A stretch of 52,770 nt of DNA from Bacillota bacterium (GTDB taxonomy: Bacteria; Bacillota; Clostridia; Lachnospirales; Lachnospiraceae), in contig JAQXYZ010000039.1 of assembly GCA_029226935.1 (NCBI GenBank), forward strand, positions 1 through 52,770. The letters are read 5' to 3'. The notes under the pieces are model-generated. The model made no database searches. It was not told the DNA's origin and saw only the letters and a list, made by a program, of their open reading frames with translations. Within the stretch, counting starts at the first letter, position 1. Each line of letters starts with the position of its first letter. The translations under genes and the position numbers were made by a program. Of the stretch, positions 27,374 to 43,335 are shown piece after piece.

Positions 27374-27925
27374 ATGACCGGTGTAATTGTAGCTCTCCCC
27401 AAAATAGATGATGCCAAAAACATGAAAAATCTACTGGTTCGAAATGGCATTTCGGTGGCAGGTGTCTGTACAACTGGGGCACAGGCGATTGCGATGGCAG
27501 ACGGACTCAATGACGGTATCATTTTATGCGGGTACAAGTTATCGGACATGATTTATTCCCAGCTTCATGAGGATCTCCCCTTTGGCTTTGAAATGCTGCT
27601 TATGGCCTCCCAGCAAATCATTGGGGGAGGCATGGTGGAAGGCGACATTATGTGCCTGACGATGCCCTTAAAGGTGCATGACCTAATCAATACTGTGGAT
27701 ATGATGACACAGAATATTGAACGAAGGAGAAGAAGGCTTAAAGCAAAACCCAAAGAGAGAAATCCCGAAGAGGTGAAGCTGATTAAGGAAGCAAAGGAAG
27801 TGCTGATGAACCGAAACCACATGTCGGAGGAGGAAGCACACAGATATATACAGAAATGCAGTATGGACAGCGGAACCAATATGGTTGAGACCGCGCAGAT
27901 GGTTCTAACCATGATGAGAGCATAA
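27374..27925 (+). CDS. ANTAR-domain RNA-binding antiterminator with degenerate receiver
   Basis: A 183-residue regulator. The N-terminal 120 residues resemble a response-regulator receiver (VIVALPKIDDAKNMKNLLVRNG), but the phospho-acceptor position in GIILCGYKLSDM lacks an Asp, so it is probably a pseudo-receiver. A basic helix (RRRRRLKAKPKERN) leads to the ANTAR domain at about 138-183 (LMNRNHMSEEEAHRYIQKCSM...MVETAQMVL). ANTAR proteins bind paired hairpins in nascent RNA and prevent termination, often for nitrogen genes. Its position behind glnA suggests glnA or other nitrogen genes as target. GAGGAGGTG precedes the ATG. Confidence 0.87.
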   Translation: MTGVIVALPKIDDAKNMKNLLVRNGISVAGVCTTGAQAIAMADGLNDGIILCGYKLSDMIYSQLHEDLPFGFEMLLMASQQIIGGGMVEGDIMCLTMPLKVHDLINTVDMMTQNIERRRRRLKAKPKERNPEEVKLIKEAKEVLMNRNHMSEEEAHRYIQKCSMDSGTNMVETAQMVLTMMRA

Positions 27926-27963
27926 AAACACAGCAGTCTGATATAACAGGCTGCTGTGTTTTT
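27925..27963 (+). terminator. Terminator after the glnA-ANTAR operon
   Basis: AAACACAGCAG pairs with CTGCTGTGTTT around a 14-base loop. The A and T arms make it usable in both directions, toward the convergent RiPP precursor as well. Confidence 0.88.
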
Positions 27964-28000
27964 AAAAGCACTCTTGGAAGTGCTTGGGTTTCAGTAATTA

Positions 28001-28873
28001 TTATTCTCCTTCGCCTGACTCAGCGTGCATAGAGCATGCTTCTGCACCACAAGTTTCTGCGGCACAGCCACCAAAAGCCCCACACCAATCAGCAGGACAT
28101 ATATTAGCGGCACAGCCACCGTGGGCAGCACAACCATCCCCGGGACATACATTAGCAGTACAGATAGCGTAAGCGGCACATGCATCTCCGCCGCAAAGGT
28201 TGCCAATACAAGCTGCCTGAGCAGCACAACCATCAGCAGCACACGCATTATAGAGACATCCTCCATGCGCCACACAACCGTCCGCAGCACATGCATTGGC
28301 GGCACAGGCACCGTGGGCAGCACATACATCCCCGGCGCAGGCATTGCCTATGCATCCTCCCTGAGCACCGCAGGCTTCTCCTCCGCAGGCCTCCCCTGCG
28401 CATCCTGCTTGTCCAGCACAGGCTCTTGCGGCGCAGGCTTGAGCAGCACAGGCATCTACAGGGCATGCAGCAGCAGCACAGGCATCCGCTCCGCAACCGG
28501 CAATTTGTACGGCGGCAGCACAGGCACTAATAATCAGAAAAATAGAAAAATTTGCTTCGGGTTCAGGCTCACCAGGTTTGAGGGGGATAGCTTCGACCGC
28601 TTGCGCTTCGTCCCCACTTCCACCGGAAACAGACTGTAATTCTTTCAGATTCAACTCTCCGGAAGTAATATCCGGAACTACATAGGTAGCATTGTAAGAG
28701 GGATCATTTTCAATAAATTTAAGGCGAAAACCTTCCGGTAATTCCTTACCGGCAATTTTCTCGATTGCAGCCCGGGAGTCTGCCTGTAGTTCTTTACGAA
28801 AGTCAGCATCCTCTGCTGCCAGCTTATTTACTTTTTGATAAAGTTCTTCCAATTCATTCTGTGTCCATGCCAT
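28001..28873 (-). CDS. NHLP-type RiPP precursor with a 31-cysteine repeat core
   Basis: A 290-residue peptide precursor. Residues 1-85 are a nitrile-hydratase-like leader: ELEELYQKVNKLAAEDADFR, ELPEGFRLKFIEND, VVPDITSGELNLKELQ, ending in VSGG at 82-85, where a C39 peptidase would cut. The mature part starts with an acidic/Pro stretch, then a hydrophobic segment (109-126). A Cys-rich core runs from 118 to 280 with 31 cysteines, spaced 5 residues apart at first and then, from Cys152 to Cys280, in a strict 6-5-5 pattern. The consensus unit of 16 residues is close to C-A-A-N-A-C-A-A-D-G-C-A-A-H-G-G. It is divergent from the NHLM transport and radical SAM genes and has its own promoter and AAAGGATG site. 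It is far longer than usual proteusin cores. The chemistry and activity of the product are unknown. Confidence 0.87.
   Translation of the reverse strand: MAWTQNELEELYQKVNKLAAEDADFRKELQADSRAAIEKIAGKELPEGFRLKFIENDPSYNATYVVPDITSGELNLKELQSVSGGSGDEAQAVEAIPLKPGEPEPEANFSIFLIISACAAAVQIAGCGADACAAAACPVDACAAQACAARACAGQAGCAGEACGGEACGAQGGCIGNACAGDVCAAHGACAANACAADGCVAHGGCLYNACAADGCAAQAACIGNLCGGDACAAYAICTANVCPGDGCAAHGGCAANICPADWCGAFGGCAAETCGAEACSMHAESGEGE
28034..28420 (-). repeat. 48-base periodic repeat encoding the 16-residue Cys units
   Basis: Eight consecutive units of 16 codons with cysteines at relative positions 0, 6 and 11 throughout (Cys152 to Cys280). The unit is also visible at DNA level as recurring GCAGCACA-type blocks. 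No insertion breaks the phase. Confidence 0.9.
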
Positions 28874-28935
28874 ACGCTCTTCATCCTTTCTTATTTTATT
28901 CGAGTATATAGTTTATGTATGAATTAATATACAAT

Positions 28936-28964
28936 ATTATATCCTGTCAGAATACCTTTTTCAA
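28936..28964 (-). promoter_or_regulatory. Predicted sigma-A promoter for the RiPP precursor
   Basis: On the minus strand TTGAAA (28964-28959), a 17-base spacer and a perfect TATAAT (28941-28936). The start codon is about 63 bases further on. The strength fits a highly expressed precursor. Confidence 0.7.
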
Positions 28965-29010
28965 GAAAACTTTGCATGGTTTTTCATAATTTGACCATAT
29001 AAAATTAAAC

Positions 29011-29056
29011 TTGCAAAGCCTTATCGGATATGTTCTAATTAAGTTAGTTTAAACTA
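29011..29056 (+). promoter_or_regulatory. Predicted promoter and palindromic operator for the NHLM/radical SAM operon
   Basis: TTGCAA at 29011-29016, a 17-base spacer and TCTAAT at 29034-29039. A perfect 12-base palindrome, TAGTTTAAACTA (29045-29056), lies over the expected start point, as a repressor site would. The rest of the 250-base gap holds the opposing precursor promoter. Confidence 0.5.
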
Positions 29057-29123
29057 GGATAGTTAAGCTGCTTTAAGATTTTTTGCATAGGATGAAATTG
29101 TTAATAAGGAGTGGAGAGCACTT

Positions 29124-29735
29124 ATGAATGGAATATACCGCATAGAGCCAAAAGAAGAAGATTCCTCTATGAAACGGCTGGACAAAATGATCACGGTAAC
29201 TTCTCCTTCCCTGTGGTTGATTCTGCTGGGAGGGGTCATAATCGTTGCGGCTGTATTAGTGTGGAGCTGCACGGGTTGGATGACGGAAACAGTGAATGCA
29301 ACAGGGCTGTATCACCCATCTGCATCAGAATATGGGGAAGTAATTGCCATGCTGCCTCTTGGGTCAGGGAAACGCATCAGTCCGGGAATGGAAGTTACCT
29401 TGTATGCAGCCGGTTATAATCAGCAGGAGTATGGGCATATGAAGGCAGTGGTCACCTATGTTGATGATTATGTTACCACAGTAGATGAAATGCAGAAACT
29501 TCTTCAAAGTGACAGTCTTGTCAGCGCTTATGCACAGAGCGGTCCTGTGATGGCGGTCATCTGCCGGCTGCAGGAGGATCCAAAAACGAAAAGCGGATAC
29601 TATTGGAGCAGTTCACGTGGTAAAAAGGTCGCTTTGTATGATGGTACGTTTATGAGCATGTCCATTACGGTATCCCGCATCAGACCGATTACGCTGGGAG
29701 TACCTGCTTTGGAGGAATATTTTGGCAATTTATGA
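29124..29735 (+). CDS. NHLM bacteriocin-system secretion protein (short HlyD-like)
   Basis: A 203-residue membrane-fusion protein with one N-terminal helix (about 29-50, SLWLILLGGVIIVAAVLVWSC) and an extracellular part with HlyD/biotinyl-lipoyl-like strands (GEVIAMLPLGSGKRISPGMEVTLYAAGY). It is shorter than typical HlyD adaptors, lacking a long coiled coil, as expected in a Gram-positive without an outer membrane. It is the first gene of the five-gene operon and would help the two ABC proteins export the peptide. GGAG lies 8 bases before the ATG. Confidence 0.78.
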   Translation: MNGIYRIEPKEEDSSMKRLDKMITVTSPSLWLILLGGVIIVAAVLVWSCTGWMTETVNATGLYHPSASEYGEVIAMLPLGSGKRISPGMEVTLYAAGYNQQEYGHMKAVVTYVDDYVTTVDEMQKLLQSDSLVSAYAQSGPVMAVICRLQEDPKTKSGYYWSSSRGKKVALYDGTFMSMSITVSRIRPITLGVPALEEYFGNL

Positions 29736-29768
29736 TTTGATTTCTGATACACTTTCCGGGGGTGTGGT

Positions 29769-31940
29769 ATGGCAAAACAAAATTCTGTAAAAACAGTAAA
29801 AAGGATTAAGCGAGTGTGGACGCCGGAGGTATATCAGATTGAGGCTTCTGAATGTGGCGCAGCTTGTCTTTCCATAATTCTGCAGTATCATCACTGCCAT
29901 GTAATGATGGAAAAGGTGCGCTACCAGTGTGGCGTTTCCAGAGACGGTTGCAGTGCAGCAGATTTAATCAATGCAGCTGCGGCTTTTGGTTTAAAGGGAG
30001 CCGGTTTTTCCAAATCACTGGAGGATATGAGAAGTTTTCCTGTCCCATGCATTCTGCACTGGGACTTTGATCATTTTGTCGTGCTGGAAGGCATTCGGGG
30101 TAATAAGGTATATCTCAATGATCCCGCTACAGGTCATCGGAAAGTAACAATGGAAGAGATGGATCAATCTTTTACCGGAATTGTCCTGTATTTTGAGGAG
30201 ACCGAAAGTTTTCAGCATTTGGAACAGCCGGATAAGCTGATGACGTTGGTTAAGGAGCGGCTAAGCGGTCAGCAGGCAACAATGCTTTATCTGCTATTTA
30301 CCGGATTGCTGTTGGTTTTTCCCGGTTTGGTGTTGCCGATTTTGACACAGACCTATATTGACAGTGTGGTAATGAATGGGAAGGTAAACTGGCTGATACC
30401 GGTACTTGCCGCTTTGGCAGGCACTTATCTGTTTCAGATTCTGTTTAACTGGATTCGGGCAAGTGTGCTTTCCAAGTTGAAGCTTAAGCTGTATATGATT
30501 ACGGGATACCAACTTTTGTACAAGCTTTTTCGCCTGCCGATTCCGTTTTTTGATCAGCGCTATACAGGGGAGCTTTCTCAGCGGATAGAAAATAACAGCG
30601 ATATCAACGATTTCCTGGCAGGAGGATTGATAGAAGCTGTTCTCAATGTGTTTGAAGCATCGTTTTTTCTTGTCCTGATGGCAATTTACAGTCCGGTTCT
30701 TACAATAGTCGGTGTAACAGGAATTTTACTGAATGTCGGGTTTTCTTTTCTGATGTTGCGCCCTTTAGCCAATCTTGCCATGAAACAGAGACAGGATCAG
30801 AACCGATTAACAGGTGTTTTGTGTGCAGGACTGTCTGTTTTTAGCACCATCAAGGCGAATGGAGCAGAGAACGATTATGCACAGGATATTCTTGGGTACT
30901 ATGCCGGAACTACGGAAAGTGAACAGCATATGGGCAGGACACAGCAGATTCTCAATGCCGTTCCTGCGGCGGTCTCTAATATTTTCAATGTTATTATTCT
31001 TATCTTTGGGGTGAACCTTGTAATCAACGGTGGTTGTACAGCGGGAATTCTCACAGCATTCTGTCAATTATTGACATCATTGACCGCACCAATCAATGCA
31101 TTGATTGGTTTTTCCCAGAATATTCAGCTGATGAAAGCGAATATGTCTAGCGTGGATGACATCGAATCTGCAACATCTGACCAACGTTTTCAGAAAAAGG
31201 ATAATGATAAATTGCCTGAAATGCTATCTGGAAGTGTGGAGATGAATGGGGTTACATTTGCCTATCATCCGGGTGCAGCGCCTGTGATTTCAAATTTAAG
31301 TCTGAAGGCATCGCCGGGCAGCCGGATTGGAATTACCGGAGCCTCAGGCTGTGGCAAAAGCACACTGGCAAAGCTGCTTGCAGGACTGTTGTACCCTCAG
31401 ACGGGCAGTATCATGTATGATGGCGTCAAGGTGGAGGAACTATCTCCTGAAATATTGAAGGGCTGTCTTTCCGTTATTGGACAGAGCAGTTTTTTCTTTT
31501 CAGGAACAATCAGGGATAATCTGACATTTTGGAATAAAAATTGTCCGGAGCAGGAAATAGTTTCCGCATTAAAAGATGCGGAAGCCTATGGACTTGTAAA
31601 TTCGCTTCCGGAGGGGTTGGAATACCGTCTGGAAGAGGGTGGGAAAAATCTGTCCGGAGGGCAGAGACAGAAGCTGCAAATAGCAAGAGCCTTGATTTGT
31701 GATCCGTCGATTCTTATTTTGGATGAGGCAACCAGTGCAATGGATCCTATAACGGAAAAGAACATTATGGAAAACATCCGTCGTCGGAATTGTACCTGCT
31801 TTATAATAGCCCATCGGCTTTCTACTTTCCGCGACAGTGATCTGATTCTCGTGATGGATGGCGGACACATCGTGCAGAGCGGAACGCATGACCAGTTGAT
31901 GGAGCAGGAAGGCATTTATCGCAGGCTGATAATGGATTGA
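29769..31940 (+). CDS. NHLM-type ABC transporter with C39 peptidase domain
   Basis: A 723-residue export ATPase that cuts leaders after Gly-Gly while exporting. The N-terminal C39 peptidase (about residues 18-145) has Cys29 in EASECGAACL, His102 in DFDHFVVLEG and Asp118 in YLNDPATG. Six membrane helices follow (about 165-440), then an ATPase with Walker A GASGCGKST, signature LSGGQRQK and Walker B ILILDEATSAMD. This fits the GG site of the NHLP precursor. It starts 33 bases after the secretion protein. Its stop overlaps the TGATG junction with the second ABC gene. Confidence 0.95.
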   Translation: MAKQNSVKTVKRIKRVWTPEVYQIEASECGAACLSIILQYHHCHVMMEKVRYQCGVSRDGCSAADLINAAAAFGLKGAGFSKSLEDMRSFPVPCILHWDFDHFVVLEGIRGNKVYLNDPATGHRKVTMEEMDQSFTGIVLYFEETESFQHLEQPDKLMTLVKERLSGQQATMLYLLFTGLLLVFPGLVLPILTQTYIDSVVMNGKVNWLIPVLAALAGTYLFQILFNWIRASVLSKLKLKLYMITGYQLLYKLFRLPIPFFDQRYTGELSQRIENNSDINDFLAGGLIEAVLNVFEASFFLVLMAIYSPVLTIVGVTGILLNVGFSFLMLRPLANLAMKQRQDQNRLTGVLCAGLSVFSTIKANGAENDYAQDILGYYAGTTESEQHMGRTQQILNAVPAAVSNIFNVIILIFGVNLVINGGCTAGILTAFCQLLTSLTAPINALIGFSQNIQLMKANMSSVDDIESATSDQRFQKKDNDKLPEMLSGSVEMNGVTFAYHPGAAPVISNLSLKASPGSRIGITGASGCGKSTLAKLLAGLLYPQTGSIMYDGVKVEELSPEILKGCLSVIGQSSFFFSGTIRDNLTFWNKNCPEQEIVSALKDAEAYGLVNSLPEGLEYRLEEGGKNLSGGQRQKLQIARALICDPSILILDEATSAMDPITEKNIMENIRRRNCTCFIIAHRLSTFRDSDLILVMDGGHIVQSGTHDQLMEQEGIYRRLIMD

Positions 31941-31951
31941 TGGAGGACGAT

Positions 31952-34528
31952 ATGCAAACGATAACCTTGAAATGCACACAAAAGATATTAAGTGATCAGC
32001 CACAGCTGGCATATCGCATTGTCTCTGGACATGTCCGAGTATTTTTGCAGCCCTGTTCTGAACAGGGAATGCAAAGACAGATGTTCCTTGATGAGTCAGG
32101 GGAAGGCAGCATAATTCCTTCCATGAATCAGGTGTATGAACAAAATCAGGTTTTGGTTCGGTTCAGGTTGCTGATTTCCGCAGTGGAAGACACCATTTTA
32201 GAAACAGTTGAAAATACGGAGGAAATTCGAAGGAGCTTTTTTTCTTCGCTCATGTTCTTTGAAGAAAATTATGAATTTAAGGAAGAGCCGGAGACGGAGT
32301 TGCTTCGCATTTATCAGGAGAAGCAGCAGGAAAGTATTTCCCGCATACAGAAAGCACAGAGTCATACAAGCACGTCAGAAAGTCAGAGTGCGGATACGGT
32401 TACTTCTGTATTCATGGGAGGTTGGGAGCGCAGGATAAGCAGTATTGAGCATTCAGGAAATCCAATCTATGATGCTGCAGCGTATATGAGCAGTGTGCTT
32501 CGACTGCCGATTGCTTCCTATGAAAAAGTACATAAGGCTTGTGGGGAAGAAATTTTATTGGAGGATATTGCACGTATCTCAGGCTTTATTTGCAGGAAAG
32601 TTTCTTTGGAGGCGGGATGGCAGCATAGTATTACTGAGCCGGTGCTTTGTAAGCACAGGGAAGATGATACAATGTGTGTGTGCATTCCGGGAAGAAGTGG
32701 ACATATGAAAATATTGACTCCATCCACGGGAAAGGTATCAAAAGCGAAACCGGAAGAATTGCAGGCACTGAGCCCTTCTGCATGGGTATTCCATCGTCCC
32801 TTTGAAAAGGAAAATGTGAGTTTTATAGATATTACAAAATTAGCGGCAAAAGGTTTTTCGTTAAGTGATGTGTTTTTTTTGCTTCTGTGTATGCTGCTGA
32901 TTACCGGCGTAGGGCTTCAGATGGCTAATTTGAATCAGATCATCTTTGATACGATCATTCCCCAGGGGGACAGAGATATGCTTTTGGGGATTGGGGGTGT
33001 TATTCTTGCCTGTACGGTGGGTAGTCTGTGTTTCTCCATCACAAAAAACCTAATCTCGTATCGGATTGACAGCCGTATTCGCTATACGCTACAGGCAGCT
33101 GTATATGAAAGAGTATTTCATTTACCGGAAAGTTTTTTTCATAGCAGAGACAGCGCAGAGCAGGCCTATCGTATCCAACTTCTGACTTCCTCCTATATGC
33201 GGATATACGACAATGCTGCCCAGATCCTTTTACAGGGAGGATTTTCGCTGTTATACATGTGGAAAATGCACCAATATTCTTCTGTGTTAAGCCATATAGG
33301 TACAGTTTTTCTCGTTTTTAATATTTTGATTACAATAGGGATTGGATGTATGGATCGTATCATGCAGCGCAAAAAGTCCCGTTCCATTGGAAGACAGCGT
33401 TCCTTTTTGTATCAGGCGCTGAGTGGCATCGAGGTAATTCGTGTCTCAGGAGCGGAGGATGAGGTCATGAATGTCAATATGAAGCAGACCGCAGAAGCGG
33501 GGCTGGCAGATAAAGGCAGTGCTGATAACAGGCGTCTTTCTGCGATGCTGGGCACCTTGAACAATGCGCTTTCTATTATGGTGTTGTATTATGTATATGT
33601 GACTGGAGAAATTGGGATTTCCATTGGTGCGTTCATGGGGTTTGTTACAGCTTTTTCGACATTTTCTGTTGCAATGTGCATGGTTGCGTCCAATAGCATG
33701 AATATTATTTCCATGTTCCCGATGCTGCGGGATTCCTCCGTATTCCTGAAGGTAACACCAGAGAGCAGCAGTAAAGGTGAGATCCCTGAGCATCTGGAAG
33801 GGGATATTCAGTTATCGCATGTGAGTTTTGCCTACGGAAAAGACCAAAAGCCGGTGTTACAGGATATTTCCATGCATATTCTGCCGGGGGAATATGTTGC
33901 AGTTGTGGGAGAAACCGGGTGTGGAAAATCCACCCTTCTGCGACTTTTGTTGGGCTTTGAAAAGCCATTGGCAGGGAAAATCTACTACGATGGTATTACC
34001 ATGGACAGGTTCAGCATGCCGGAACTGAGACGGCAGATTGGGGTTGTCCTGCAGGACGGAAGCCTGCTTGCCGGAAGTATTTCCAAAAACATCAGGATTG
34101 CCTGTCCTTCGGCAACTGCCGAACAAATAAGAAGGGCGGTAGAAGATGCCGGGCTGCAGGATGTGATTGACAGTATGCCCATGGGAATGGACACCCTTGT
34201 ATCGGAACAGGGGCGAACGCTTTCCGGTGGTCAGAAGCAGCGCATCCTGATTGCCAGAGCAATTGTAGGCGAACCTCGAATTTTGTTTATGGATGAGGCG
34301 ACCAGCTCTCTGGATAATCATTCACAGGCGAAGATTTGTGAAAGTCTTGAAAAGTACCATGCAACCCGACTGGTAATTGCACATAGGCTTTCTACGGTTG
34401 AGCATTGTGACCGCATCATTGTTCTTGATAAAGGAAGAATTGTTGAAAGCGGCACTTATGCAGAGTTAATAGAAAAGAAAGGTAAATTTTTTGAGCTTGC
34501 TCAAAATCAGATGATAAAGGAGGATTAG
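31952..34528 (+). CDS. NHLM-type ABC transporter, second ATP-binding protein
   Basis: An 858-residue ABC protein. The first 300 residues or so are a non-peptidase N-terminal domain typical of the second NHLM transporter. Six helices follow, then an ATPase with Walker A GETGCGKST, signature LSGGQKQR and Walker B ILFMDEATSSLD. NHLM systems carry two such ABC proteins, and this one probably pairs with the C39 transporter. GGAGG at 31943-31947 supports the ATG at 31952; ATG 31940, overlapping the upstream stop, is possible. Confidence 0.92.
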   Translation: MQTITLKCTQKILSDQPQLAYRIVSGHVRVFLQPCSEQGMQRQMFLDESGEGSIIPSMNQVYEQNQVLVRFRLLISAVEDTILETVENTEEIRRSFFSSLMFFEENYEFKEEPETELLRIYQEKQQESISRIQKAQSHTSTSESQSADTVTSVFMGGWERRISSIEHSGNPIYDAAAYMSSVLRLPIASYEKVHKACGEEILLEDIARISGFICRKVSLEAGWQHSITEPVLCKHREDDTMCVCIPGRSGHMKILTPSTGKVSKAKPEELQALSPSAWVFHRPFEKENVSFIDITKLAAKGFSLSDVFFLLLCMLLITGVGLQMANLNQIIFDTIIPQGDRDMLLGIGGVILACTVGSLCFSITKNLISYRIDSRIRYTLQAAVYERVFHLPESFFHSRDSAEQAYRIQLLTSSYMRIYDNAAQILLQGGFSLLYMWKMHQYSSVLSHIGTVFLVFNILITIGIGCMDRIMQRKKSRSIGRQRSFLYQALSGIEVIRVSGAEDEVMNVNMKQTAEAGLADKGSADNRRLSAMLGTLNNALSIMVLYYVYVTGEIGISIGAFMGFVTAFSTFSVAMCMVASNSMNIISMFPMLRDSSVFLKVTPESSSKGEIPEHLEGDIQLSHVSFAYGKDQKPVLQDISMHILPGEYVAVVGETGCGKSTLLRLLLGFEKPLAGKIYYDGITMDRFSMPELRRQIGVVLQDGSLLAGSISKNIRIACPSATAEQIRRAVEDAGLQDVIDSMPMGMDTLVSEQGRTLSGGQKQRILIARAIVGEPRILFMDEATSSLDNHSQAKICESLEKYHATRLVIAHRLSTVEHCDRIIVLDKGRIVESGTYAELIEKKGKFFELAQNQMIKED

Positions 34529-34530
34529 AT

Positions 34531-35910
34531 ATGAAATGGTCTAGATACAGCACTTTGTTTGAGTCTAAAAGGAATGGGTGGCTACTCTTTAATTCAGCTT
34601 CCCGGTCTTTTTTAAAGGTGGAGGATTGTGAACTGGATGTGGTAAGGGGGATTATGGCAGATCCGGAAGGCTACGATTATTCCAAGGTACCAATGCTTTA
34701 TATGCAGCTTCGGTCTCTCGGATATCTTGTGGAAGACCGGCAGGATGATAATCTTTACAATATTATTAAAATGAGGCATCTGACACAGCTGTATGGGGGT
34801 AACACGCTAATGCTGACAATAGCAATCACTCGGTCCTGTAATTTTGACTGCAGCTATTGCTATGAGGGCAACCGAACCGGAAAGCCCATGTCACAGGAGG
34901 TAGAAGACAAGCTGATTCGCTTTATCAAAAGCTTTAAGGCAGATCATTTGGGAATTACCTGGTACGGCGGGGAGCCGTTGCTGGCATTTGACCGTATTCT
35001 CAGTATTGATCGACGTATCAGGGAAATGGGCAAGACATACACAGCCAGCATGATTACTAATGGATACCTGCTTACAGAGGAAAAGATCGCAAAACTGAAT
35101 GAGTTGAATATAAATTATTTGCAGATTACATTGGATGGGAGGAAGGAGACTCATGACAGCCGTCGTTATCTCAAAAACGGAGATGCTACTTATGATGTAA
35201 TTATCAGTAACATAGACAAGGTGCTGAGTACGGATTTCAAAGGCACGATTCATGTCAGGGTCAATATTGACGGCAGAAATGATGAGGAATTTGCGGATGT
35301 ATACAACACCATCCGTCTGCGTTATCCACGTGATTTCGGCAGACGTATTACCGTATATCCCGGTTTTGTCAAGGGAGATGACCACCCGGATGCAAGCTGT
35401 TTTTTTGAACCGAAAGAGCAGGGAGAGTTTATCTCCAAAATGGTAAAAGAACATAGAATCAGCCCGTTACCAATCTTTCCACAGAAAGGAGTGCCAGGCT
35501 GTACCCTGACAAGGCGTAATGCATTTGTGGTAGGCCCGGATGGGGAGCTGTATAAGTGCTGGGATGATGTGGGACTTGAGGAAAAGGTTGTGGGACATAT
35601 TGATCGATTCAATGACTGGAATATTTCTCTGCTTGCGGAAGGTATGACAGGGTGCTCTTATCTTGATTCTGAAGAATGCAGGGAGTGTTATTATTTCCCT
35701 ATTTGCAATGGTGGTTGCCATCGAATTCGCCAAAAGAATCTGTATACAGATAAACCACATAGCCCTTGTTCGTACTTCCGGGATAATCTGGAAGAATTGC
35801 TGGAGCTTCATTATGAAAACAAGTTAGAAATGGTTGCAAGAATGCGTGCCCGACAAAAGGCACAGGAAGAAGCACAGAAAGCAGCCGCTGTACAGGGGGA
35901 AGAGAAGTGA
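34531..35910 (+). CDS. Radical SAM/SPASM peptide maturase
   Basis: A 459-residue radical SAM enzyme. The radical SAM cluster CxxxCxxC is at Cys103, Cys107 and Cys110 (CNFDCSYC). The preceding 80 residues look like a peptide-binding region. The C-terminal SPASM domain has CTLTRR, then GELYKCWDD, then CSYLDSEECRECYYFPIC and NGGC, enough for auxiliary Fe-S clusters. Such enzymes make thioether or C-C crosslinks in Cys-rich precursors, which fits the 31-Cys core. The exact bond is unknown. AAAGGAGG precedes the ATG, and the gene is tightly coupled to its neighbours. Confidence 0.9.
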   Translation: MKWSRYSTLFESKRNGWLLFNSASRSFLKVEDCELDVVRGIMADPEGYDYSKVPMLYMQLRSLGYLVEDRQDDNLYNIIKMRHLTQLYGGNTLMLTIAITRSCNFDCSYCYEGNRTGKPMSQEVEDKLIRFIKSFKADHLGITWYGGEPLLAFDRILSIDRRIREMGKTYTASMITNGYLLTEEKIAKLNELNINYLQITLDGRKETHDSRRYLKNGDATYDVIISNIDKVLSTDFKGTIHVRVNIDGRNDEEFADVYNTIRLRYPRDFGRRITVYPGFVKGDDHPDASCFFEPKEQGEFISKMVKEHRISPLPIFPQKGVPGCTLTRRNAFVVGPDGELYKCWDDVGLEEKVVGHIDRFNDWNISLLAEGMTGCSYLDSEECRECYYFPICNGGCHRIRQKNLYTDKPHSPCSYFRDNLEELLELHYENKLEMVARMRARQKAQEEAQKAAAVQGEEK

Positions 35911-37250
35911 ACCAAAGAGAGTATGCACGGTTCAAACGGGCAATGGAGTGGTATTCGGTAGACCCTGCTTTCAGGGAGGCTGTCGAGAAGGAGCCCTCAG
36001 ATGTTTTTTCAAGGCTGGGGGTTACATCAAAGCCTTCACAGGTGCTGGATGCAATTCGCTGTATTCTGGGAGGAACTTTCAATTCTGAGACCGCACAGGA
36101 AAACCCCTATGTGAAGGAGTATGCACATAGAAATTGCATGGTATCTGAAAGGGTGCGGCAGAGAGTGGGGAGAGAACGGTTTGCGGCAGATGGCATCTGG
36201 CAGTATTCTAATATAGTTCGGAATCGCTGCCGGATGGAAAATCAGCTTATTCGGATGCATTCCAATATCTACTTTTACCCTGCCGTATTTGAACTGAGCG
36301 AAGGCTGCCGTGTGCAATGTCCCTTTTGTGGTCTTGCGGCAAAACCATGGTCATCAGATTTTCGATATACGGAAGAAAACAGAACTCTGTGGCGAGAAGT
36401 ACTTCAGATTACCAGGGAATTGCTGGGAAATGTCATAGATGTGTCACCATGCTATTTTGCTACAGAACCCTTAGATAATCCGGATTATGAAGACTTTCTT
36501 CGGGATGCGAGAGAAGTGACCGGTGGTGTTCCACAAACAACAACGGCTCTTGCAGAAAGATATCCGGAAAGGATTCGCTCCCTGATGAATTTCCTGGGAA
36601 AAAGAGAATTGGAAGAAAATAATGCACTGCGTATTTCAATCCGTAATCTGACACAGTTTCACCGCATCATGGAACTCTATACGCCGGAGGAATTGGAAAA
36701 TGTAGAATTGCTTCCTAATAATCCTGAGTCGGTTTATAAATATTCCCGTTCCGGCAGGGCAGTGAAAGACAGCGCATGGATATCCAAAGACAAAGCGATT
36801 TGTTACAGTATTAGTTGTCTGGCAGGCATTCGGGTAAACATGGCTGCAAGGACAATTGCCTTTGTGGAGCCTGAGCAGCCTGACAGTGAATATCCTTTGG
36901 GCATTCGCACAAGAGAAATATTAACGTTTCAGGATGCAGAATCTTATCGGGAGGGGCTTATAAAGCTGTTTCGCTCTTATGCTTTTGGTTCTCTTCCGTA
37001 TTATGTTCCGGTGCAGCTTAACAAGAATATCAATATGGAGACAGATGAGAAGGAAATCCGCCTGCTTGGGGATGGCATCGGTTATCGCATAGACCGGAAT
37101 GCAATGCTCATGGATGCACTTATATTACTTAAGGGAGGAATTTGTCCGATAGAGATTCCGGAAAAAGTCGGAGCACCCCAATTTATGGAGGAGAAGCTCT
37201 TTCAATTGTTGAATGAACTTTATATACGCGGGTATCTTCGCTTGAAATAA
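35907..37250 (+). CDS. Radical SAM RiPP maturation amino-acid epimerase (PoyD-like)
   Basis: A 447-residue radical SAM enzyme of the family that turns L residues into D residues in proteusin-type peptides. The CxxxCxxC motif is at Cys134, Cys138 and Cys141 (CRVQCPFC), preceded by VFELSEG. The first 60 residues (MEWYSVDPAFREAVEKEPSDVFSRLGV) resemble an NHLP-like recognition region. It starts with GTG at 35907 that overlaps the TGA of the SPASM gene, so the two are coupled. A PoyD-like enzyme beside an NHLP precursor is the proteusin pattern. Which residues would be epimerised is not known. Confidence 0.85.
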   Translation: MNQREYARFKRAMEWYSVDPAFREAVEKEPSDVFSRLGVTSKPSQVLDAIRCILGGTFNSETAQENPYVKEYAHRNCMVSERVRQRVGRERFAADGIWQYSNIVRNRCRMENQLIRMHSNIYFYPAVFELSEGCRVQCPFCGLAAKPWSSDFRYTEENRTLWREVLQITRELLGNVIDVSPCYFATEPLDNPDYEDFLRDAREVTGGVPQTTTALAERYPERIRSLMNFLGKRELEENNALRISIRNLTQFHRIMELYTPEELENVELLPNNPESVYKYSRSGRAVKDSAWISKDKAICYSISCLAGIRVNMAARTIAFVEPEQPDSEYPLGIRTREILTFQDAESYREGLIKLFRSYAFGSLPYYVPVQLNKNINMETDEKEIRLLGDGIGYRIDRNAMLMDALILLKGGICPIEIPEKVGAPQFMEEKLFQLLNELYIRGYLRLK

Positions 37251-37382
37251 TGAAATGATAGCATTATTTGCATATTCCACCGCAATGAAAGCTATATTTA
37301 TATTGAAAAAAATGTGGTACACTTTGTGCAAAGGAAAACAGAAGCTTGTGTTATAAGAAAGTGATGAAGGAGGTTCCCGACG

Positions 37383-38222
37383 ATGAAGTTTACGAAAATG
37401 CATGGATGCGGCAACGATTATATTTATGTAGACGGTGCCAGAGAACAGATTTCACAGGATGAGAAGCCGGAAATCGTAAAACGGCTCAGTGACAGGCATT
37501 TTGGAATTGGTGGAGATGGTGTAATTTTTATCAATCCTTCCACAGAAGCTGATTTTGAGATGGAAATGTACAATGCAGATGGCTCCAGAGCGGAAATGTG
37601 CGGAAACGGAATTCGCTGTGTTGCAAAGTTTGTGTATGATAAAGGGCTTACCGATAAAACATCAATCAGCATTATCAGTTGTGGCAAGATAAAATACCTT
37701 GACCTTACCGTTGAGGATGGCAAGGTATCGACTGTTAAGGTCAATATGGGCTCTCCCATTATAAAAGCAACAGATATTCCTGTGATTTCGGAACGCGAGG
37801 AAGTGATTGCAGAACCCATAGAAGTAGAGGGAAAAACCTATAAAATGACATGCGTGTCGATGGGAAATCCCCATGCAGTCATTTTCATGGACGAAATAAC
37901 CGGACTTCCACTTGATCAGATGGGACCTCCCTTTGAAAATCATGTACGCTTTCCAAAGCGCATCAACACAGAATTTGTCAAAGTGATTGATGAGGAAACC
38001 GTGGATATGCGCGTCTGGGAGCGGGGGACAGGAGAAACGCTTGCCTGCGGAACCGGTGCCTGTGCTACAGTGGTAGCTTGTGTATTAAATGGTTTGACGA
38101 AGGAGAAAGTTACTGTTAAACTATTAGGTGGAAATTTACAGATTCAGTGGGATAGAAAGGAAAATCTTGTCTATATGACGGGACCTGCTGCAACTGTTTT
38201 TGAAGGCGAAGTAGAAGTGTAA
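37383..38222 (+). CDS. dapF: Diaminopimelate epimerase
   Basis: A 279-residue PLP-independent epimerase that makes meso-DAP from LL-DAP for lysine and peptidoglycan. The two catalytic cysteines are clear: EMCGNGIRCVAKFV and ACGTGACATVVAC. The N-terminus KFTKMHGCGNDYIYVD is typical. GAAGGAGG precedes the ATG. The 132 bases between the RiPP operon and this gene contain no obvious gene. dapL follows by 37 bases, so the pair forms the DapL-DapF route. Confidence 0.97.
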   Translation: MKFTKMHGCGNDYIYVDGAREQISQDEKPEIVKRLSDRHFGIGGDGVIFINPSTEADFEMEMYNADGSRAEMCGNGIRCVAKFVYDKGLTDKTSISIISCGKIKYLDLTVEDGKVSTVKVNMGSPIIKATDIPVISEREEVIAEPIEVEGKTYKMTCVSMGNPHAVIFMDEITGLPLDQMGPPFENHVRFPKRINTEFVKVIDEETVDMRVWERGTGETLACGTGACATVVACVLNGLTKEKVTVKLLGGNLQIQWDRKENLVYMTGPAATVFEGEVEV

Positions 38223-38259
38223 GTACAAGCCCAAATGCTAATCAGGAGGAGACAAAAAG

Positions 38260-39474
38260 ATGTTTAAGATTAATGACAATTATTTAAAGCTTCCCGGAAG
38301 CTACTTATTTTCAACCATTGGGAAAAAGGTAAATGCCTATGCCGCAGCTAACCCGGACAAAAAGATTATTCGTCTTGGGATTGGTGATGTGACTCAGCCC
38401 CTTGCCCCTGCCATTATCACAGCCCTTCACGGTGCGGTGGATGAGATGTCCAAGGCAGAAACCTTTAGGGGCTATGCACCGGATTTAGGCTATGAGTTCC
38501 TTAGAAATGCCATTGCGGAAAATGACTACAAAGCAAGAGGATGTGACATCGCAGCAGATGAAATTTTTGTATCTGACGGAGCAAAGTGTGACTCTGGAAA
38601 TATTCAGGAAATATTCAGCGTGGACAACAAGATTGCAGTCTGTGACCCTGTATATCCGGTATATGTGGATACCAATGTTATGGCAGGAAGAACCGGAGTT
38701 TATGACAGCGTAAAGGAGACCTGGAGTGATGTAATTTACATGCCCTGTACGGCAGAAAACAATTTTGCGCCTCAATTACCTAAGGAAACACCGGATATCA
38801 TTTATCTTTGCTTCCCCAATAACCCTACCGGTTCTACCATTAACAAGGCGCAGCTTCAGGAATGGGTTGATTATGCAAACAAGGTAGGAGCAGTAATCAT
38901 TTACGATGCAGCTTATGAAGCTTATATTTCTGAGGAAGATGTTCCACATTCTATTTATGAGTGTGAAGGGGCAAGAACCTGTGCAATTGAACTGCATTCT
39001 TTCTCCAAGAATGCAGGATTTACCGGTGTTCGTCTTGGCTACACGGTTATTCCCAAGGATTTGAAGTGTGGGGATGTTACACTCCATTCTTTATGGGCAA
39101 GAAGACATGGCACTAAATACAATGGCGCACCCTACATTGTGCAGCGTGCCGGTGAAGCCGTTTATTCCGAAGAGGGCAAGGCACAGTTAAAGCAGCAGGT
39201 GGCTTACTACATGAACAATGCCAAATACATTCTAGAAGGCTTAAAGAGCGCAGGGTATACCGTATCTGGTGGCGTGAATGCTCCTTATATCTGGCTGAAA
39301 GCACCGAATGGAATGACCAGCTGGGAATTCTTTGATTATCTGCTTGAAAATGCAAATGTGGTGGGAACACCCGGCTCAGGCTTTGGTCCCAGCGGTGAAA
39401 CCTATTTCAGACTGACTGCATTTGGAAGCTATGAAAATACCGTAGAAGCAGTAGACAGGATTAAGGCTTTGTAA
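38260..39474 (+). CDS. dapL: LL-diaminopimelate aminotransferase
   Basis: A 404-residue PLP aminotransferase that makes LL-DAP directly from tetrahydrodipicolinate and glutamate, bypassing the succinyl/acetyl steps. Signatures are [16 protein letters not shown] at the start, [32 protein letters not shown], and the PLP lysine in [28 protein letters not shown] precedes the ATG. The product feeds DapF, encoded just upstream. Confidence 0.96.
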
Positions 39475-39511
39475 TTTTCAGAACTATATAGTGATTAAAA
39501 GTATAAAGAAA

Positions 39512-39543
39512 AGGAACCACTGATTATTCAGAGGTTCCTTTTA
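39512..39543 (+). terminator. Terminator shared by dapL and the convergent DUF5684 gene
   Basis: GGAACC-a-CTGA pairs with TCAG-a-GGTTCC, with A and T runs on either side, so it can work for both strands. Confidence 0.85.
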
Positions 39544-39565
39544 ACATTCTTATGTAGTTTTTTGT

Positions 39566-39946
39566 TTACTGCTGAGGACCAACATATTCTGCATTGCCAA
39601 ATCCAAGGATTAAAACGAAGATGGTGTTTAAGAATAAAAGTCCAAAGCCGAATGCGGTGCCTTTTCCAAATGCCTTAGCCAGCTTGAAGTAAAGCATAAT
39701 CATTACAACAATGTTTACACAGGGGACTAAGGAAAGAAGGAATAACCATCCGTTTCCCCAAGCAAGATCAAAAAGGCAGTAAGTGTTGTAAAAGGGGATG
39801 ATACTAGCCCATCCGGGTTTACCTGCCTTCTTAAATATTTTCCACATTGCAATAATGGTTAATACCGAAATTACAAGGCTGACAATCACAGAGACCATAT
39901 ATACGCCTGTGCCTATAGCTGTAACCATTGCATCATAGTTTTCCAT
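39566..39946 (-). CDS. DUF5684 membrane protein
   Basis: A 126-residue protein with three to four membrane helices. The motif FKKAGKPGWASIIPFYNTY after the first helix and the later CVNIVVMIMLYFKLAKAFGKG are the DUF5684 signature, a family of small clostridial membrane proteins without a proven role. An AAGGGAGGATT site (minus strand) precedes the ATG. It is a single gene. Confidence 0.82.
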   Translation of the reverse strand: MENYDAMVTAIGTGVYMVSVIVSLVISVLTIIAMWKIFKKAGKPGWASIIPFYNTYCLFDLAWGNGWLFLLSLVPCVNIVVMIMLYFKLAKAFGKGTAFGFGLLFLNTIFVLILGFGNAEYVGPQQ

Positions 39947-40154
39947 TATAAAATCCTCCCTTCAGGAATATAAAATTTTGACTTCTTTCTAATCATATAT
40001 GATAGAAGAAACAATGTCAATTTGTAAATTATGCATAAAAAGAAGAAGGAAGTGTAAAAAATATAAATTTTTTATGAATATTGCAATATAGAGTTTCCTT
40101 TTGCTTAAAAAGGAGATAAAATATTTATTTACAACTATGAAAGAAGGAAACGAG

Positions 40155-40931
40155 ATGCAAATATTACTAGAGATAATTGTGTGTTTTTTTGCAGGAATGG
40201 GTGCCGGGCTTGGCACAGGCTTTGCAGGGATGAGTGCAGCAGCAGTAATTTCTCCCATGCTGATTACTTTTTTGGGAATGCCTGCTTATCAGGCGGTAGG
40301 AATAGCGCTTGCGTCGGATGTGTTGGCGAGTGCGGTTTCCGCTTACACCTATGGGAAAAATAAAAATCTGGATATTAAAAATGGTGTGGTTATGATGGTT
40401 ATGGTGCTCATTTTTACCATGGTAGGAAGTTACATATCCAGCCTGGTTCCCAACACGACAATGGGGAATTTCTCTGTATTTATGACATTGCTTTTGGGCA
40501 TTAAGTTTATTGTAAAGCCGGTTATGACTACCAAGGAGTCCATGGAAGCAGTTTCAAAGAAAAAGAGAATCATACAATCTGTGATATGTGGGTGCATGAT
40601 AGGATTTATTTGTGGCTTTGTAGGAGCCGGTGGTGGAATGATGATGCTTCTCATCCTTACATCCGTATTGGGATATGAACTTAAGACTGCTGTGGGAACC
40701 AGCGTATTTATTATGGCGTTCACTGCTTTTACAGGAGCAATGTCTCATTTCGCAATCGGAGGTGCGCCGGATGTGGCGGTTCTTGGGCTATGCGTAGTCT
40801 TTACACTTCTTTGGGCAAGGATTGCGGCAAGGTTTGCCAACAATGCTTCGGCTGCGACTTTAAACCGCGCTACGGGGGTTGTGCTTACCGTGCTTGGCAG
40901 TGTAATTGTGGCAGTCAACTATTTGTTTTGA
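40155..40931 (+). CDS. TauE/SafE family sulfite/organic-anion exporter
   Basis: A 258-residue polytopic membrane protein with internal duplication: GLGTGFAGMSAAAVISPML in the first half and GFICGFVGAGGGMMMLLIL in the second. This is the TauE/SafE pattern. Members move sulfite, sulfoacetate or related organic anions. The ATG at 40155 follows AAGAAGGAAA; the track-length frame starts at a TTG at 40101 with no proper ribosome site. The neighbours give no clue to the substrate. Confidence 0.82.
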   Translation: MQILLEIIVCFFAGMGAGLGTGFAGMSAAAVISPMLITFLGMPAYQAVGIALASDVLASAVSAYTYGKNKNLDIKNGVVMMVMVLIFTMVGSYISSLVPNTTMGNFSVFMTLLLGIKFIVKPVMTTKESMEAVSKKKRIIQSVICGCMIGFICGFVGAGGGMMMLLILTSVLGYELKTAVGTSVFIMAFTAFTGAMSHFAIGGAPDVAVLGLCVVFTLLWARIAARFANNASAATLNRATGVVLTVLGSVIVAVNYLF

Positions 40932-41006: not shown

Positions 41007-41300
41007 ACCCAATAAACAAAGAACAAATGTAATGATAAGGAATAGTAGCTGGAAACGGGACATCAGAGAACTGCCGGATGGTGCAAGGCAGTCAGAAGCA
41101 GACAGTGAACTCGCCTTTGAGCAGCTGACTGAAGACCGCTTGGCGGTTGTGTAGGCTCAGACGGAAATTCCTTCCGTAGAAGTGGAAAGGCATGATAGTG
41201 CCGATGAGCGTATGACATATATGTCATAAAGTAGGGTGGTACCGCGTAAAGAATTTGCGTCCCTATGAAGTATCTTTGCAGATATTTCATAGGGATTTTT
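41007..41300 (+). promoter_or_regulatory. T-box leader (predicted Leu, specifier CTC)
   Basis: The T-box sequence AGGGTGGTACCGCG is at 41233-41246, able to pair with uncharged tRNA. A distal stem I loop GGATGGTGCAAGG is visible at about 41076-41088. GTGAACTCGCC (about 41106-41115) offers a Leu CTC specifier at 41110-41112. The terminator follows: CCCTATGAA...TCATAGGG plus TTTTT (41260-41300). Uncharged tRNA-Leu would stabilise the antiterminator and turn on leuA. The specifier was placed by eye and fits the downstream gene. This accounts for most of the 400-base gap before leuA. Confidence 0.85.
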
Positions 41301-41337
41301 AAGTTTAATGACATGAATGTCGGAGAGGAGATTCAAC

Positions 41338-43335
41338 ATGAGCGTAGCAGAAAAATATGGAAAATCTTATTTTATGCCCCCGGAGGTTACATATGACTGG
41401 GTAAAAAAGGATACAATTACCAAGGCACCCATTTGGTGCAGCGTGGATTTGAGGGACGGTAATCAGGCGTTGGTTGAGCCAATGAGTCTTGAGGAAAAAT
41501 TGGAATTTTTTAAAATGCTGGTGGAAATTGGCTTTAAGGAAATAGAGGTGGGGTTTCCGGCTGCATCCGAAACAGAATATCAATTTGTCCGTGCTCTGAT
41601 TGAACGGAACATGATACCTGAGGATGTGACAATCCAGGTTCTCACACAGGCAAGAGACCATATCATCAGAAAGACCTTTGAGGCTTTAGACGGTGCACCT
41701 TCGGCGGTTGTGCATCTCTACAACTCAACCTCTGTTGCACAGCGAGAGCAGGTATTTAAGAAATCTAAGGAAGAGGTCAAGCAGCTGGCGGTGGAGGGTG
41801 CAAAGCTTCTGAAAGAAATTGCACAGGAGACAGAGGGAAATTTTACCTTTGAATACAGCCCTGAAAGTTTTCCGGGAACGGAAGTAGATTATGCGGTGGA
41901 GGTGTGTAATGCGGTGTTGGATGTGTGGCAGCCGGATCAGAAGCATAAGGCAATCATCAATATTCCAACGACTGTCCAGATTGCAATGCCCCATGTGTTC
42001 GCGTGCCAGGTGGAGTACATTCACAAACATTTGAAATACAGGGATGCAGTAGTTTTAAGTGTGCATCCTCACAATGACAGGGGATGTGGGGTCAGTGATG
42101 CGGAATTTGGTGTGCTGGCAGGAGCAGACCGTATTGAAGGAACACTTTTTGGAAATGGAGAGAGAACCGGAAATGTGGACATTGTGACACTTGCCATGAA
42201 TATGGTCTGCCATGGCGTAGAACCGGAGCTTGATTTCAGACATATCAGTAAGGTCAGGGAAACTTATGAACTGCTTACGGGAATGCGTGTCTATGAGAGG
42301 ACTCCTTATGCGGGAGATTTGGTGTTTACTGCATTCTCCGGTTCTCATCAGGATGCTATTTCTAAGGGAATGGCATGGTGGAACGAAGGAAAAAGCGGTA
42401 AGCGCTGGGATGTACCTTATCTTCCTATTGATCCGGAGGATCTGGGAAGAGAATATGAATCTGATGTTATCAGGATCAACAGCCAGTCAGGCAAAGGAGG
42501 CATAGCCTTTATTTTGAAACAGAATTTCGGTATGTCCCTGCCGGATAAAATGAAGGAAGAAGTGGGATATCTCATGAAGGGAATTTCCGATCAGAGACAT
42601 AAAGAACTTGCACCGGATGATGTGTATCGCATTTTTGAAGATCATTATATCAATCAGAGGGAGATTTTTGATATACCGGAATGCCATTTCAGACAGATGG
42701 ATGATGGAATTGTAGCGGAGGTAACGATTGAGCAGAATAAGGAAAGACGTGTGATTGAGACCTCCGGGAATGGTCGTTTGGACGCGGTCAGCAATGCAGT
42801 AAAGCTGTATTTTGGCATTAGCTATGAACTGTCCGTCTATGAAGAGCATGCGGTATCAAGAGGATCGTCCTCCAAGGCGGCGGCATATGTCGGGATTTTA
42901 TGCAATGGTAAGACGTACTGGGGCGTGGGTGTAGACGAAGATATCATTAAAAGTTCCATTGCGGCGCTGGTTTCTGCCGGAAATAAGATGGCTCAGAGCG
43001 AGAATATCAGAGAGGGCAGAGAAGAACGAATTGTAGATATCATGCGTTATGTGCAGAACCACTACAAGGATGTGACCCTGGAGGAGCTTGCCGGAACCTT
43101 CCACCTTTCTGCACCCTATCTTTCAAAATATATTAAGGAACGTACGGGAGCAACCTTTCAGGAGACGGTAAAAAAGGTGCGGATGAAAAAGGCACGGGCG
43201 ATGCTGAAAGAAACCAATCAGACAGTGGAGAGCATTGCCGCCTGCGTAGGATATGAGACAGTGGAACACTTTAACAGACTTTTTAAAAAGATTTATGGCA
43301 TGACCCCGGTGCAGTTCAGAAGGCAGCATAAATAA
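41338..43335 (+). CDS. leuA: 2-Isopropylmalate synthase with C-terminal AraC-type DNA-binding domain
   Basis: A 665-residue protein with three parts. Residues 1 to about 400 are a DRE-TIM-type synthase that condenses acetyl-CoA and 2-oxoisovalerate, with DLRDGNQ (37-43) and the metal-binding HPHND (His243, His245). Residues about 448-555 are the LeuA allosteric dimer domain that binds leucine. Residues about 562-663 are unexpected: two helix-turn-helix units of the AraC family, one in [21 protein letters not shown] and one in [20 protein letters not shown], ending in [11 protein letters not shown]. The frame is continuous with no sign of a frameshift. Normal enzymes of this type end near residue 560. 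The ATG at 41338 follows GGAGAGGAG. Control is by the T-box upstream. The fusion may couple leucine sensing to DNA binding. Confidence 0.9.

Follow-up and report, generated by a model that had tools for sequence, protein, structure and literature searches.

Architecture of the cluster

The window analysed here, a stretch of 52,770 nucleotides, is a single contig (C39; JAQXYZ010000039.1) of a 161-contig, 2.59-Mb Lachnospiraceae genome. It carries a six-gene cluster that appears to encode a ribosomally synthesized and post-translationally modified peptide (RiPP), in which a proteusin-type leader is joined to a long Cys-periodic core and two radical S-adenosylmethionine (SAM) enzymes are encoded side by side. 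The precursor gene (28001..28873, minus strand; 290 amino acids, 31 Cys) was recognised by scans for the NHLP leader and CefA families. It is divergent from a five-gene operon on the plus strand, which encodes, in this order, a short HlyD-like protein, an ATP-binding cassette (ABC) exporter with a C39 peptidase, a second ABC protein, a SPASM radical SAM protein and a PoyD-like radical SAM protein. A first-pass annotation had proposed the same six genes, and all six, including the C39 exporter, were confirmed at the position assigned there, with complete cofactor motifs in both radical SAM proteins; its remark that the precursor "faces" the operon holds for the presence of both but describes their orientation loosely.

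The precursor and the HlyD gene share a 250-bp upstream region (28874..29123), in which one sigma-70-like site for the precursor was detected (28936-28964, 11/12), not above the shuffle mean of 1.8 sites. Consecutive operon genes overlap or abut at 31937/31940, 34528/34531 and 35907/35910, an arrangement consistent with coupled translation.

Precursor peptide

Residues 1-85 (28619..28873, minus strand) form the leader, which ends in Gly84-Gly85 and was delimited by profile search, structure-sequence alignment and AlphaFold2. It matches the NHLP profile TIGR03793 over positions 3-77 of 77 (E 3.5e-10; 39.6 bits, below the cut-off of 50.9), and residues 3-85, up to the Gly-Gly, align with the solved NHLP leader PDB 9cjx (phmmer, E 1.5e-14), while residues 9-85 align with 8tb1 (phmmer, E 1.9e-4). 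AlphaFold2 predicts three helices and a hairpin, with a predicted local distance difference test score (pLDDT) of 72-83 over the first five ten-residue blocks. An LXXXXL motif, Leu74-Leu79, lies at -12 to -7, the position it also takes in a proteusin leader described in an excerpt of PMC10858898. The leader hence displays the proteusin features of a length of about 80-90 residues, helices followed by a hairpin, LXXXXL at -12 to -7 and Gly-Gly, and judged by its sequence it is a true NHLP (proteusin) leader, as had been proposed. In its own genome this precursor was the sole NHLP-leader match at E up to 1 (43.0 bits, under the cut-off); the same loose search also gave matches below the cut-off in 5 of 14 control genomes.

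A variable, Pro/Glu-rich linker follows (residues 86-117; 28523..28618, minus strand), delimited by its sequence and its divergence from the sister species described below, and runs into a hydrophobic stretch (residues 109-126) that begins within it. The Cys-periodic core itself spans residues 118-290 (28004..28522, minus strand) and was defined by the spacing of its 31 Cys, which runs 9, five times 5, 6, seven times 5-5-6 and finally 5-5. Spacing and phase analysis places eight 16-residue repeats of the 5-5-6 type at residues 158-285 (28019..28402, minus strand), the last of them degenerate at its end; this repeat grammar goes unmentioned in the first-pass annotation. Judged against 2000 shuffles per lag, 24 Cys pairs were observed at lag 16 (shuffle mean 5.2, maximum 13) and 21 at lag 5 (shuffle maximum 12), while the counts at lag 6 (8 observed) and lag 10 were not above the shuffle maximum of 12.

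The residue three positions after each Cys (Cys+3) follows a similarly strict rule. It is polar in 27 of the 31 units (Asp 8, Asn 6, Gln 4, Glu 4, His 4, Arg 1), the others having Ala (2), Tyr (1) or Phe (1), and none of the positions -1, +1, +2 and +4 holds Asp, Asn, Glu, Gln, His, Arg or Lys in any unit. Position -2 is polar in 20/31 units; where the spacing is 5, it coincides with position +3 of the preceding Cys. Within the eight repeats, the Cys+3 residue is moreover fixed by phase, reading ENNNNNNE, EDDDDDDE and QHHQYHFH from residue 158; the mutual information of 1.42 bits between phase and residue was reached in none of 20000 shuffles. As the repeat units share 46-75 % DNA identity, they do not look freshly duplicated.

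The chain after Gly85 comprises 205 residues (18.9 kDa before modification, isoelectric point 4.05, 30 % Ala). Lys99 and Arg150 are its only Lys and Arg, so that the trypsin readout suggested in the first-pass annotation would be nearly blind. The core scores 48.5 bits, in five stretches, against CefA (NF038108), the "Cys-every-fifth" family of NCBIfam with a model of 65 positions and a cut-off of 30. Nine of 391 class genomes matched this model at E up to 0.001, three of them over the cut-off, namely the genome of the window, G449 and G609, the last with an internal stop in the match.

A viral origin was considered and rejected, since no relative of the precursor or the epimerase was found in viral contigs. 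A 5-5-6 Cys pattern requiring nine Cys gave, among the IMG/VR matches listed, 277 matches at 120 loci; these included 80 stop-free 43-residue translations with at least 12 Cys each, none like the core. On one IMG/VR contig (L116) the pattern hits an array rich in Lys and Ser that has Cys-Cys pairs and a period of 16 residues; this array looks unrelated to the core, yet it is more than simple low-complexity sequence.

Radical SAM enzymes

The SPASM radical SAM peptide maturase (34531..35910, plus strand) is a distant relative of the CefB and Clo7bot maturases, scoring 221.8 bits against CefB (NF038107) and 221.5 bits against Clo7bot (TIGR04334), each with a cut-off of 600, and is not filed here as a CefB. 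Its better family matches include the thioether-forming PapB and SCIFF maturases, at low scores. Cys103, Cys107 and Cys110 as well as the SPASM residues Cys324, 343, 383, 386, 392, 396 and 413 are invariant in all 11 aligned sequences (the window, its sister at 99 % and nine relatives at 25-32 % identity), the seven latter following the seven-Cys SPASM pattern. A role as a defence system was considered and rejected, as the corresponding models gave generic viperin-model scores for this protein and none for the other three proteins checked.

No protein in 381 class genomes exceeded the CefB cut-off; G535 ranked best (573.7 bits) and the window protein seventh. We examined 15 loci of the best SPASM relatives (L176-L190), at least four of which are cut by contig ends, and a filter for Cys-periodic open reading frames (ORFs) returned candidates at six of them. 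G535 has two precursors with 7/5 Cys spacing and a short leader (25.3 bits each against the CefA cut-off of 30), and G449 a Cys spacing of 5 on a crystallin/fascin-like protein (CefA, 53.0 bits); spacings are mainly 3-4 in G415, G569 and G583 and 2 in G527. A PoyD-like or HlyD match (E 1e-5) was found at none of the 15 loci.

The G449 locus (L182:4481-9507; G449:C13) deserves mention in its own right. It encodes a 515-amino acid protein with beta/gamma-crystallin and fascin-like domains and a tail of 27 Cys spaced 5 or 10, adjoined by a TIGR04463 SPASM maturase (561.9 bits, cut-off 525) and a TIGR03975 B12 radical SAM C-methyltransferase (607.7 bits). By these assignments it appears to be a second hybrid of a Cys array and proteusin-type chemistry, there on a folded protein. 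The genome of the window holds a second SPASM-type radical SAM gene (G000:C34:15911-16987; 124.6 bits to the CefB profile), and the filter found no Cys-periodic ORF in the 12.6 kb around it (L192).

The PoyD-like radical SAM epimerase (35907..37250, plus strand) overlaps the SPASM gene by 4 bp and matches TIGR04517 over residues 7-444 with 324.2-324.5 bits at a cut-off of 325. The cluster motif CxxxCxxC (Cys134, 138 and 141) and a lone Cys304 are invariant in 12/12 aligned epimerases, comprising those of the window, the sister species and Streptomyces, two from G040 and seven plasmid-borne proteins, five of them rhizobial and closely related. According to a passage in a review (PMC8326336), almost 70 PoyD homologues have a single strictly conserved Cys in common, Cys372, and mutating it abolishes epimerisation in vivo. 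By that description, Cys304 is a candidate equivalent of Cys372 and a candidate hydrogen donor. Inactivity for want of the second Cys of some homologues (P-C) was dismissed, as that residue is also absent in the rhizobial homologues and Cys304 is invariant.

Relatives of this enzyme are scarce. At E up to 0.001, the PoyD-family profile matched 3/385 order genomes, in one case over a fragment of 30 positions, and the window epimerase as query matched 3/392 genomes, one weakly. A contig scan that detects only close relatives returned the sister and the Streptomyces protein (31 %), and matching plasmid records numbered 49 for the Streptomyces protein and 47 for the window epimerase. A profile built from the SPASM alignment matched the window and its sister; at nine further epimerase loci (L033, L154-L160 and the G040 region L210/L015/L018) it gave no hit within the sequence fetched. 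The precursor candidates encoded upstream there contain 0-2 Cys, and their cores are V/A/T/I-rich or else short and hydrophobic. With a PoyD-like gene at 0/15 SPASM-relative loci and a SPASM gene at 0/9 other epimerase loci, the combination in the window is rare among the loci searched, as the first-pass annotation had implied.

The AlphaFold2 model of the epimerase, built from three sequences, has a mean pLDDT of 49.1. A helical N-terminal part is among its best-predicted regions, and in the same part (window 35907-36120) the PoyD-family profile weakly matches the nitrile hydratase alpha chain 6lk7 (E 0.016); from these two observations, the N-terminus may be a leader-like domain. The epimerase also matches the phage protein family phrog_35107 (138.9 bits; function of the family not known), and the viral contig scan confirmed no relative.

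Exporter

Three operon genes encode a putative NHLM-type exporter: the short HlyD-like membrane fusion protein (29124..29735, plus strand; TIGR03794, 117 bits, cut-off 156.2), which is of half length, the ABC exporter with C39 peptidase (29769..31940, plus strand; TIGR03796, 840 bits, cut-off 853.3; Pfam C39, 122.6) and the second ABC protein (31937..34528, plus strand; TIGR03797, 637 bits, cut-off 709.4), whose gene overlaps the preceding one by 4 bp. The C39 domain shows its Cys motif QIEASECG from residue 23 and its His motif at residue 102; family scans found no peptidase domain in the second ABC protein. NHLM families are the best match for each protein, over nearly the full profile for both ABC proteins and in all cases below the equivalog cut-off.

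Relatives of the C39-ABC protein (E up to 1e-100) occur in 47/330 order genomes, the nearest (44-46 %) in G143, G095 and G249; G235 has one as a split copy, and all others are at 39 % or below. These three relatives were considered as carriers of similar precursors and rejected, as they sit with Cys-poor Gly-Gly precursors that are Nif11-like by eye. No leader like that of the window was found in 14 stretches searched, among them seven around the NHLM genes of other genomes and one from G040. Sigma-factor-like genes (G143, G095) and PP2C- or STAS-like genes were noted by eye at the loci L203 (G143), L204 (G095) and L205 (G249), which are possible regulated Nif11 islands. By its family matches, the cluster looks assembled from parts, namely an NHLM-type exporter, a proteusin leader with epimerase, and a CefA-type core with its enzyme.

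Conservation in a sister species

A contig of another species, CAMBLS010000035.1 (L032, genome G788), contains the same six genes and is 95.3 % identical to window positions 28002-40929 (12.9 kb). As this 13-kb block is also present in the genome bin of another species, a binning artefact or chance was rejected as its origin; together with a Cys periodicity that exceeds shuffled sequences, it makes chance or an assembly error unlikely. In the sister core, 31/31 Cys and every spacing are kept, and the changes in Cys codons are three synonymous and no non-synonymous ones. The ratio of non-synonymous to synonymous substitution rates (dN/dS) is 0 in the leader (no amino acid change, one synonymous change), 0.49 in the linker and 0.34 in the core, compared with 0.10 for HlyD, 0.08 and 0.14 for the first and second ABC protein, 0.03 for the SPASM enzyme and 0.24 for the epimerase; the flanking genes dapF and dapL give 0.14 and 0.01. 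The core thus evolves faster than the enzymes but retains its grammar. Among 37 genomes of the genus, two (those of the window and G788) carry the SPASM gene with an identity of at least 99 %, and ten others hold only matches of 27-31 %.

Synonymous divergence (dS) between the two species is uneven (window 29124-39474 against L032): most cluster genes lie at 0.06-0.09, the C39-ABC gene reaches 0.175 and dapL 0.24, hinting at recombination inside the block.

Proposed biosynthesis and alternative explanations

On balance, we favour a hybrid proteusin, whose single core would receive both thioether crosslinks and D-residues before cleavage by the C39 domain and export. Its observed basis is the set of genes, the leader family, the Cys grammar, conservation in one sister species and the intact cofactor motifs, from which we infer both reactions, the crosslink partner, cleavage, export and the order of the steps. 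The NHLP leader would present the precursor to both radical SAM enzymes. The SPASM enzyme would join many of the 31 Cys to a nearby residue, most likely the conserved Asp, Asn or Glu at Cys+3 (CX2[D/N/E]), in a ranthipeptide-like side-chain thioether, and the PoyD-like enzyme would convert some of the intervening residues, such as Ala, Val, Ile or Asn but not Gly, into their D-epimers. The C39 domain would then cut after Gly84-Gly85, and the two-ABC/HlyD exporter would secrete the modified chain of 205 residues. Ranthipeptide enzymes are known to use Asp, Asn and Glu as thioether acceptors, as passages in PMC9413430 and PMC8326336 state; PapB acts on CX3D and tolerates CXnD (n 0-6) as well as D-residues (excerpt of PMC9413430), and NxxcA has an NX2C pair (excerpt of PMC8326336). 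Since PapB tolerates D-residues, crosslinking and epimerisation are compatible in principle, and the 4-bp gene overlap suggests that the SPASM enzyme and the epimerase are co-expressed.

The crosslink partner is the weakest link of this pathway. CX2[D/N/E] accounts for 18/31 units, and units with His, Gln, Arg or another residue at +3 may be unlinked, linked elsewhere or structural. We know of no case in which His, Gln or Arg, found at +3 in nine units, serves as thioether acceptor, and in four other units this place is taken by Ala, Tyr or Phe. In favour of the pathway, the two CefA-like G535 precursors beside their near-CefB enzyme follow the same grammar, with a polar Cys+3 in 18/18 and 17/17 units. 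At other loci of SPASM relatives, Cys+3 is polar in 8/12 units of G415; in the G449 tail it is polar in 13/27, the rest being Ala except for one Tyr, and the rule is weak or absent in G569 (5/10) and G583 (4/7 and 1/6). The C-x-x-polar rule is thus a trait of CefA-like cores and not of SPASM relatives in general. Further points speak against the hybrid proteusin. AlphaFold2 predicts the unmodified core to be disordered (mean pLDDT of the precursor 41.7, with nearly all residues after 68 below 50), the short CefA model also matches 2/14 control genomes, in one of them over the cut-off, and the system is present in one sister genome only. Six curated NCBIfam cut-offs are missed across the cluster, one by 0.5 bit; the family names are right as best matches, yet only CefA passes its curated cut-off.

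The epimerase, which accounts for that narrowest miss, carries two more such points. In the window and its sister it is changed at 16 positions where all ten other homologues agree, a reference set including the five closely related rhizobial proteins, and its dN/dS is the highest among the enzymes and above that of the SPASM gene. Together with the lack of an epimerase gene at the CefA-like loci examined, this would fit a core that is crosslinked and not epimerised. The SPASM enzyme alone would then act on it, giving a giant ranthipeptide or sactipeptide of the CefA type behind a proteusin leader, the PoyD-like protein being degenerate or modifying few sites. The cluster motif and Cys304 are however intact, the reading frame is open in both species and the overlap with the SPASM gene suggests co-expression, so we hold this alternative to be unlikely, though well worth considering.

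The hybrid proteusin also invites a bolder version, which we regard as quite unlikely: a giant RiPP, in which the secreted chain of 205 residues with up to ~30 thioethers and D-residues would fold into a solenoid with three faces, each turn consisting of one 16-residue repeat and the Asn, Asp and His/aromatic residues standing in columns of their own. It would be a genetically encoded, protease-proof repeat scaffold made by the CefB-like and PoyD-like enzymes together. The solenoid is extrapolated from the periodicity only.

The phase-fixed His, Asp and Asn beside Cys could also be read as columns that bind metal in a sulfur-rich metal-binding or structural secreted protein, with free or disulfide-bonded Cys and with radical enzymes making a different, sparse modification. 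The Cys tail of G449 on a crystallin/fascin-like protein likewise suggests a structural use. We consider this improbable, given the PapB and SCIFF maturases among the better, though low-scoring, family matches of the SPASM protein and a grammar that is common to CefA-like precursors. A polytheonamide-like pore former with dense alternating D- and L-residues in a membrane-spanning beta-helix, the Cys being secondary, would be in line with the hydrophobic stretch at residues 109-126 and with the 1,3 pattern of D-residues made by PoyD (excerpt of PMC8326336), but is very improbable, as the core is Cys/Ala/Gly-rich and acidic, a strict 1,3 register is interrupted by its odd spacing of 5 residues and the precursor candidates at other PoyD-like genes are Cys-poor and hydrophobic or V/A/T/I-rich. 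The core is also longer than that of polytheonamide.

Genomic setting

Among named relatives, the nearest one found is a metagenome-assembled genome of an uncultured Lachnospiraceae bacterium. In the window, the cluster sits directly between an ANTAR gene and dapF. A perfect inverted repeat of 13 bp, flanked or interspersed by A and T runs and read directly from the sequence between the ANTAR gene and the precursor (27924..27963), is a possible bidirectional terminator; a scan confined to loops of 3-8 did not list it. Four congeneric loci (L211, L213, L214 and L216) read glnA, ANTAR, four genes that are DedA-, glycosyltransferase-, response-regulator- and histidine-kinase-like by eye, dapF and dapL, with two further genes before dapF and dapL in L216. 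The four intermediate L214 proteins had no blastp match at E 1e-3 among the window ORFs; the L214 histidine kinase was found in the sister species, where the cluster sits between a histidine kinase (Pfam HisKA) and dapF. The ANTAR-dapF stretch (window 27374-38222) is thus variable in the genus, and the window is without the DedA-, glycosyltransferase-, response-regulator- and histidine-kinase-like genes of its congeners. The simplest reading of this gene order is that the lineage of the two species gained the cluster and that genes on its ANTAR side were subsequently lost or rearranged. Further downstream, a T-box leader (41023-41267; Rfam RF00230, 114.2 bits) lies upstream of a 672-amino acid ORF (41317-43335).

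Comparison with known systems

Each enzyme type is already known. The first-pass annotation knew of no described product with this combination and this core. For the combination this holds in the open-access literature searched, where no title or abstract opening named a product with an NHLP leader, a SPASM enzyme, a PoyD-like enzyme and a Cys-array core, although RiPP mining tables may hold one. The core is not entirely without precedent, as it scores above the CefA cut-off. The terms "Cys-every-fifth" and "Clo7bot" had no match in the open-access literature searched. If the hybrid proteusin is correct, radical epimerisation and radical thioether formation would act on one core, which is nowhere described in the literature searched, and the substrate would be several times the polytheonamide core in length. 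The 16-residue unit offers a ready test bed for crosslink partners and for the order of D-residue formation and crosslinking, and the C-x-x-polar grammar a testable rule for CefA-type substrates.

With proteusins such as polytheonamide and landornamide, the window shares the NHLP leader with LXXXXL and Gly-Gly and the PoyD-family enzyme; in L155 and L158, too, the epimerase gene has an NHLM-type C39 exporter as its neighbour. The window differs in its 205-residue region with 31 Cys after the Gly-Gly, in contrast to the 0-2 Cys of the candidates at other epimerase loci, in the presence of a SPASM enzyme and in the absence of a B12 methyltransferase from its cluster. CefA/CefB systems (NF038108/NF038107) resemble it in the core above the CefA cut-off, the C-small-small-polar-small grammar and the SPASM partner, whereas the CefA-like G535 locus has 7/5 spacing, a short leader and no PoyD or HlyD match nearby, and the window enzyme remains far from the CefB cut-off. 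The G449 locus has in common with the window a Cys-every-fifth array, a SPASM maturase and a second radical SAM enzyme of the proteusin-pathway kind; there, however, the SPASM enzyme belongs to TIGR04463, the second enzyme is a TIGR03975 C-methyltransferase and not an epimerase, and folded N-terminal domains take the place of the NHLP leader. Ranthipeptides (freyrasin/PapA-PapB, NxxcA, SCIFF), finally, pair Cys with a nearby Asp, Asn or Glu and use a SPASM-type enzyme, as the window would, but with CX3D or NX2C instead of CX2Z (Z being the Cys+3 residue), while the window combines a far longer repeat array with an NHLP leader and an epimerase.

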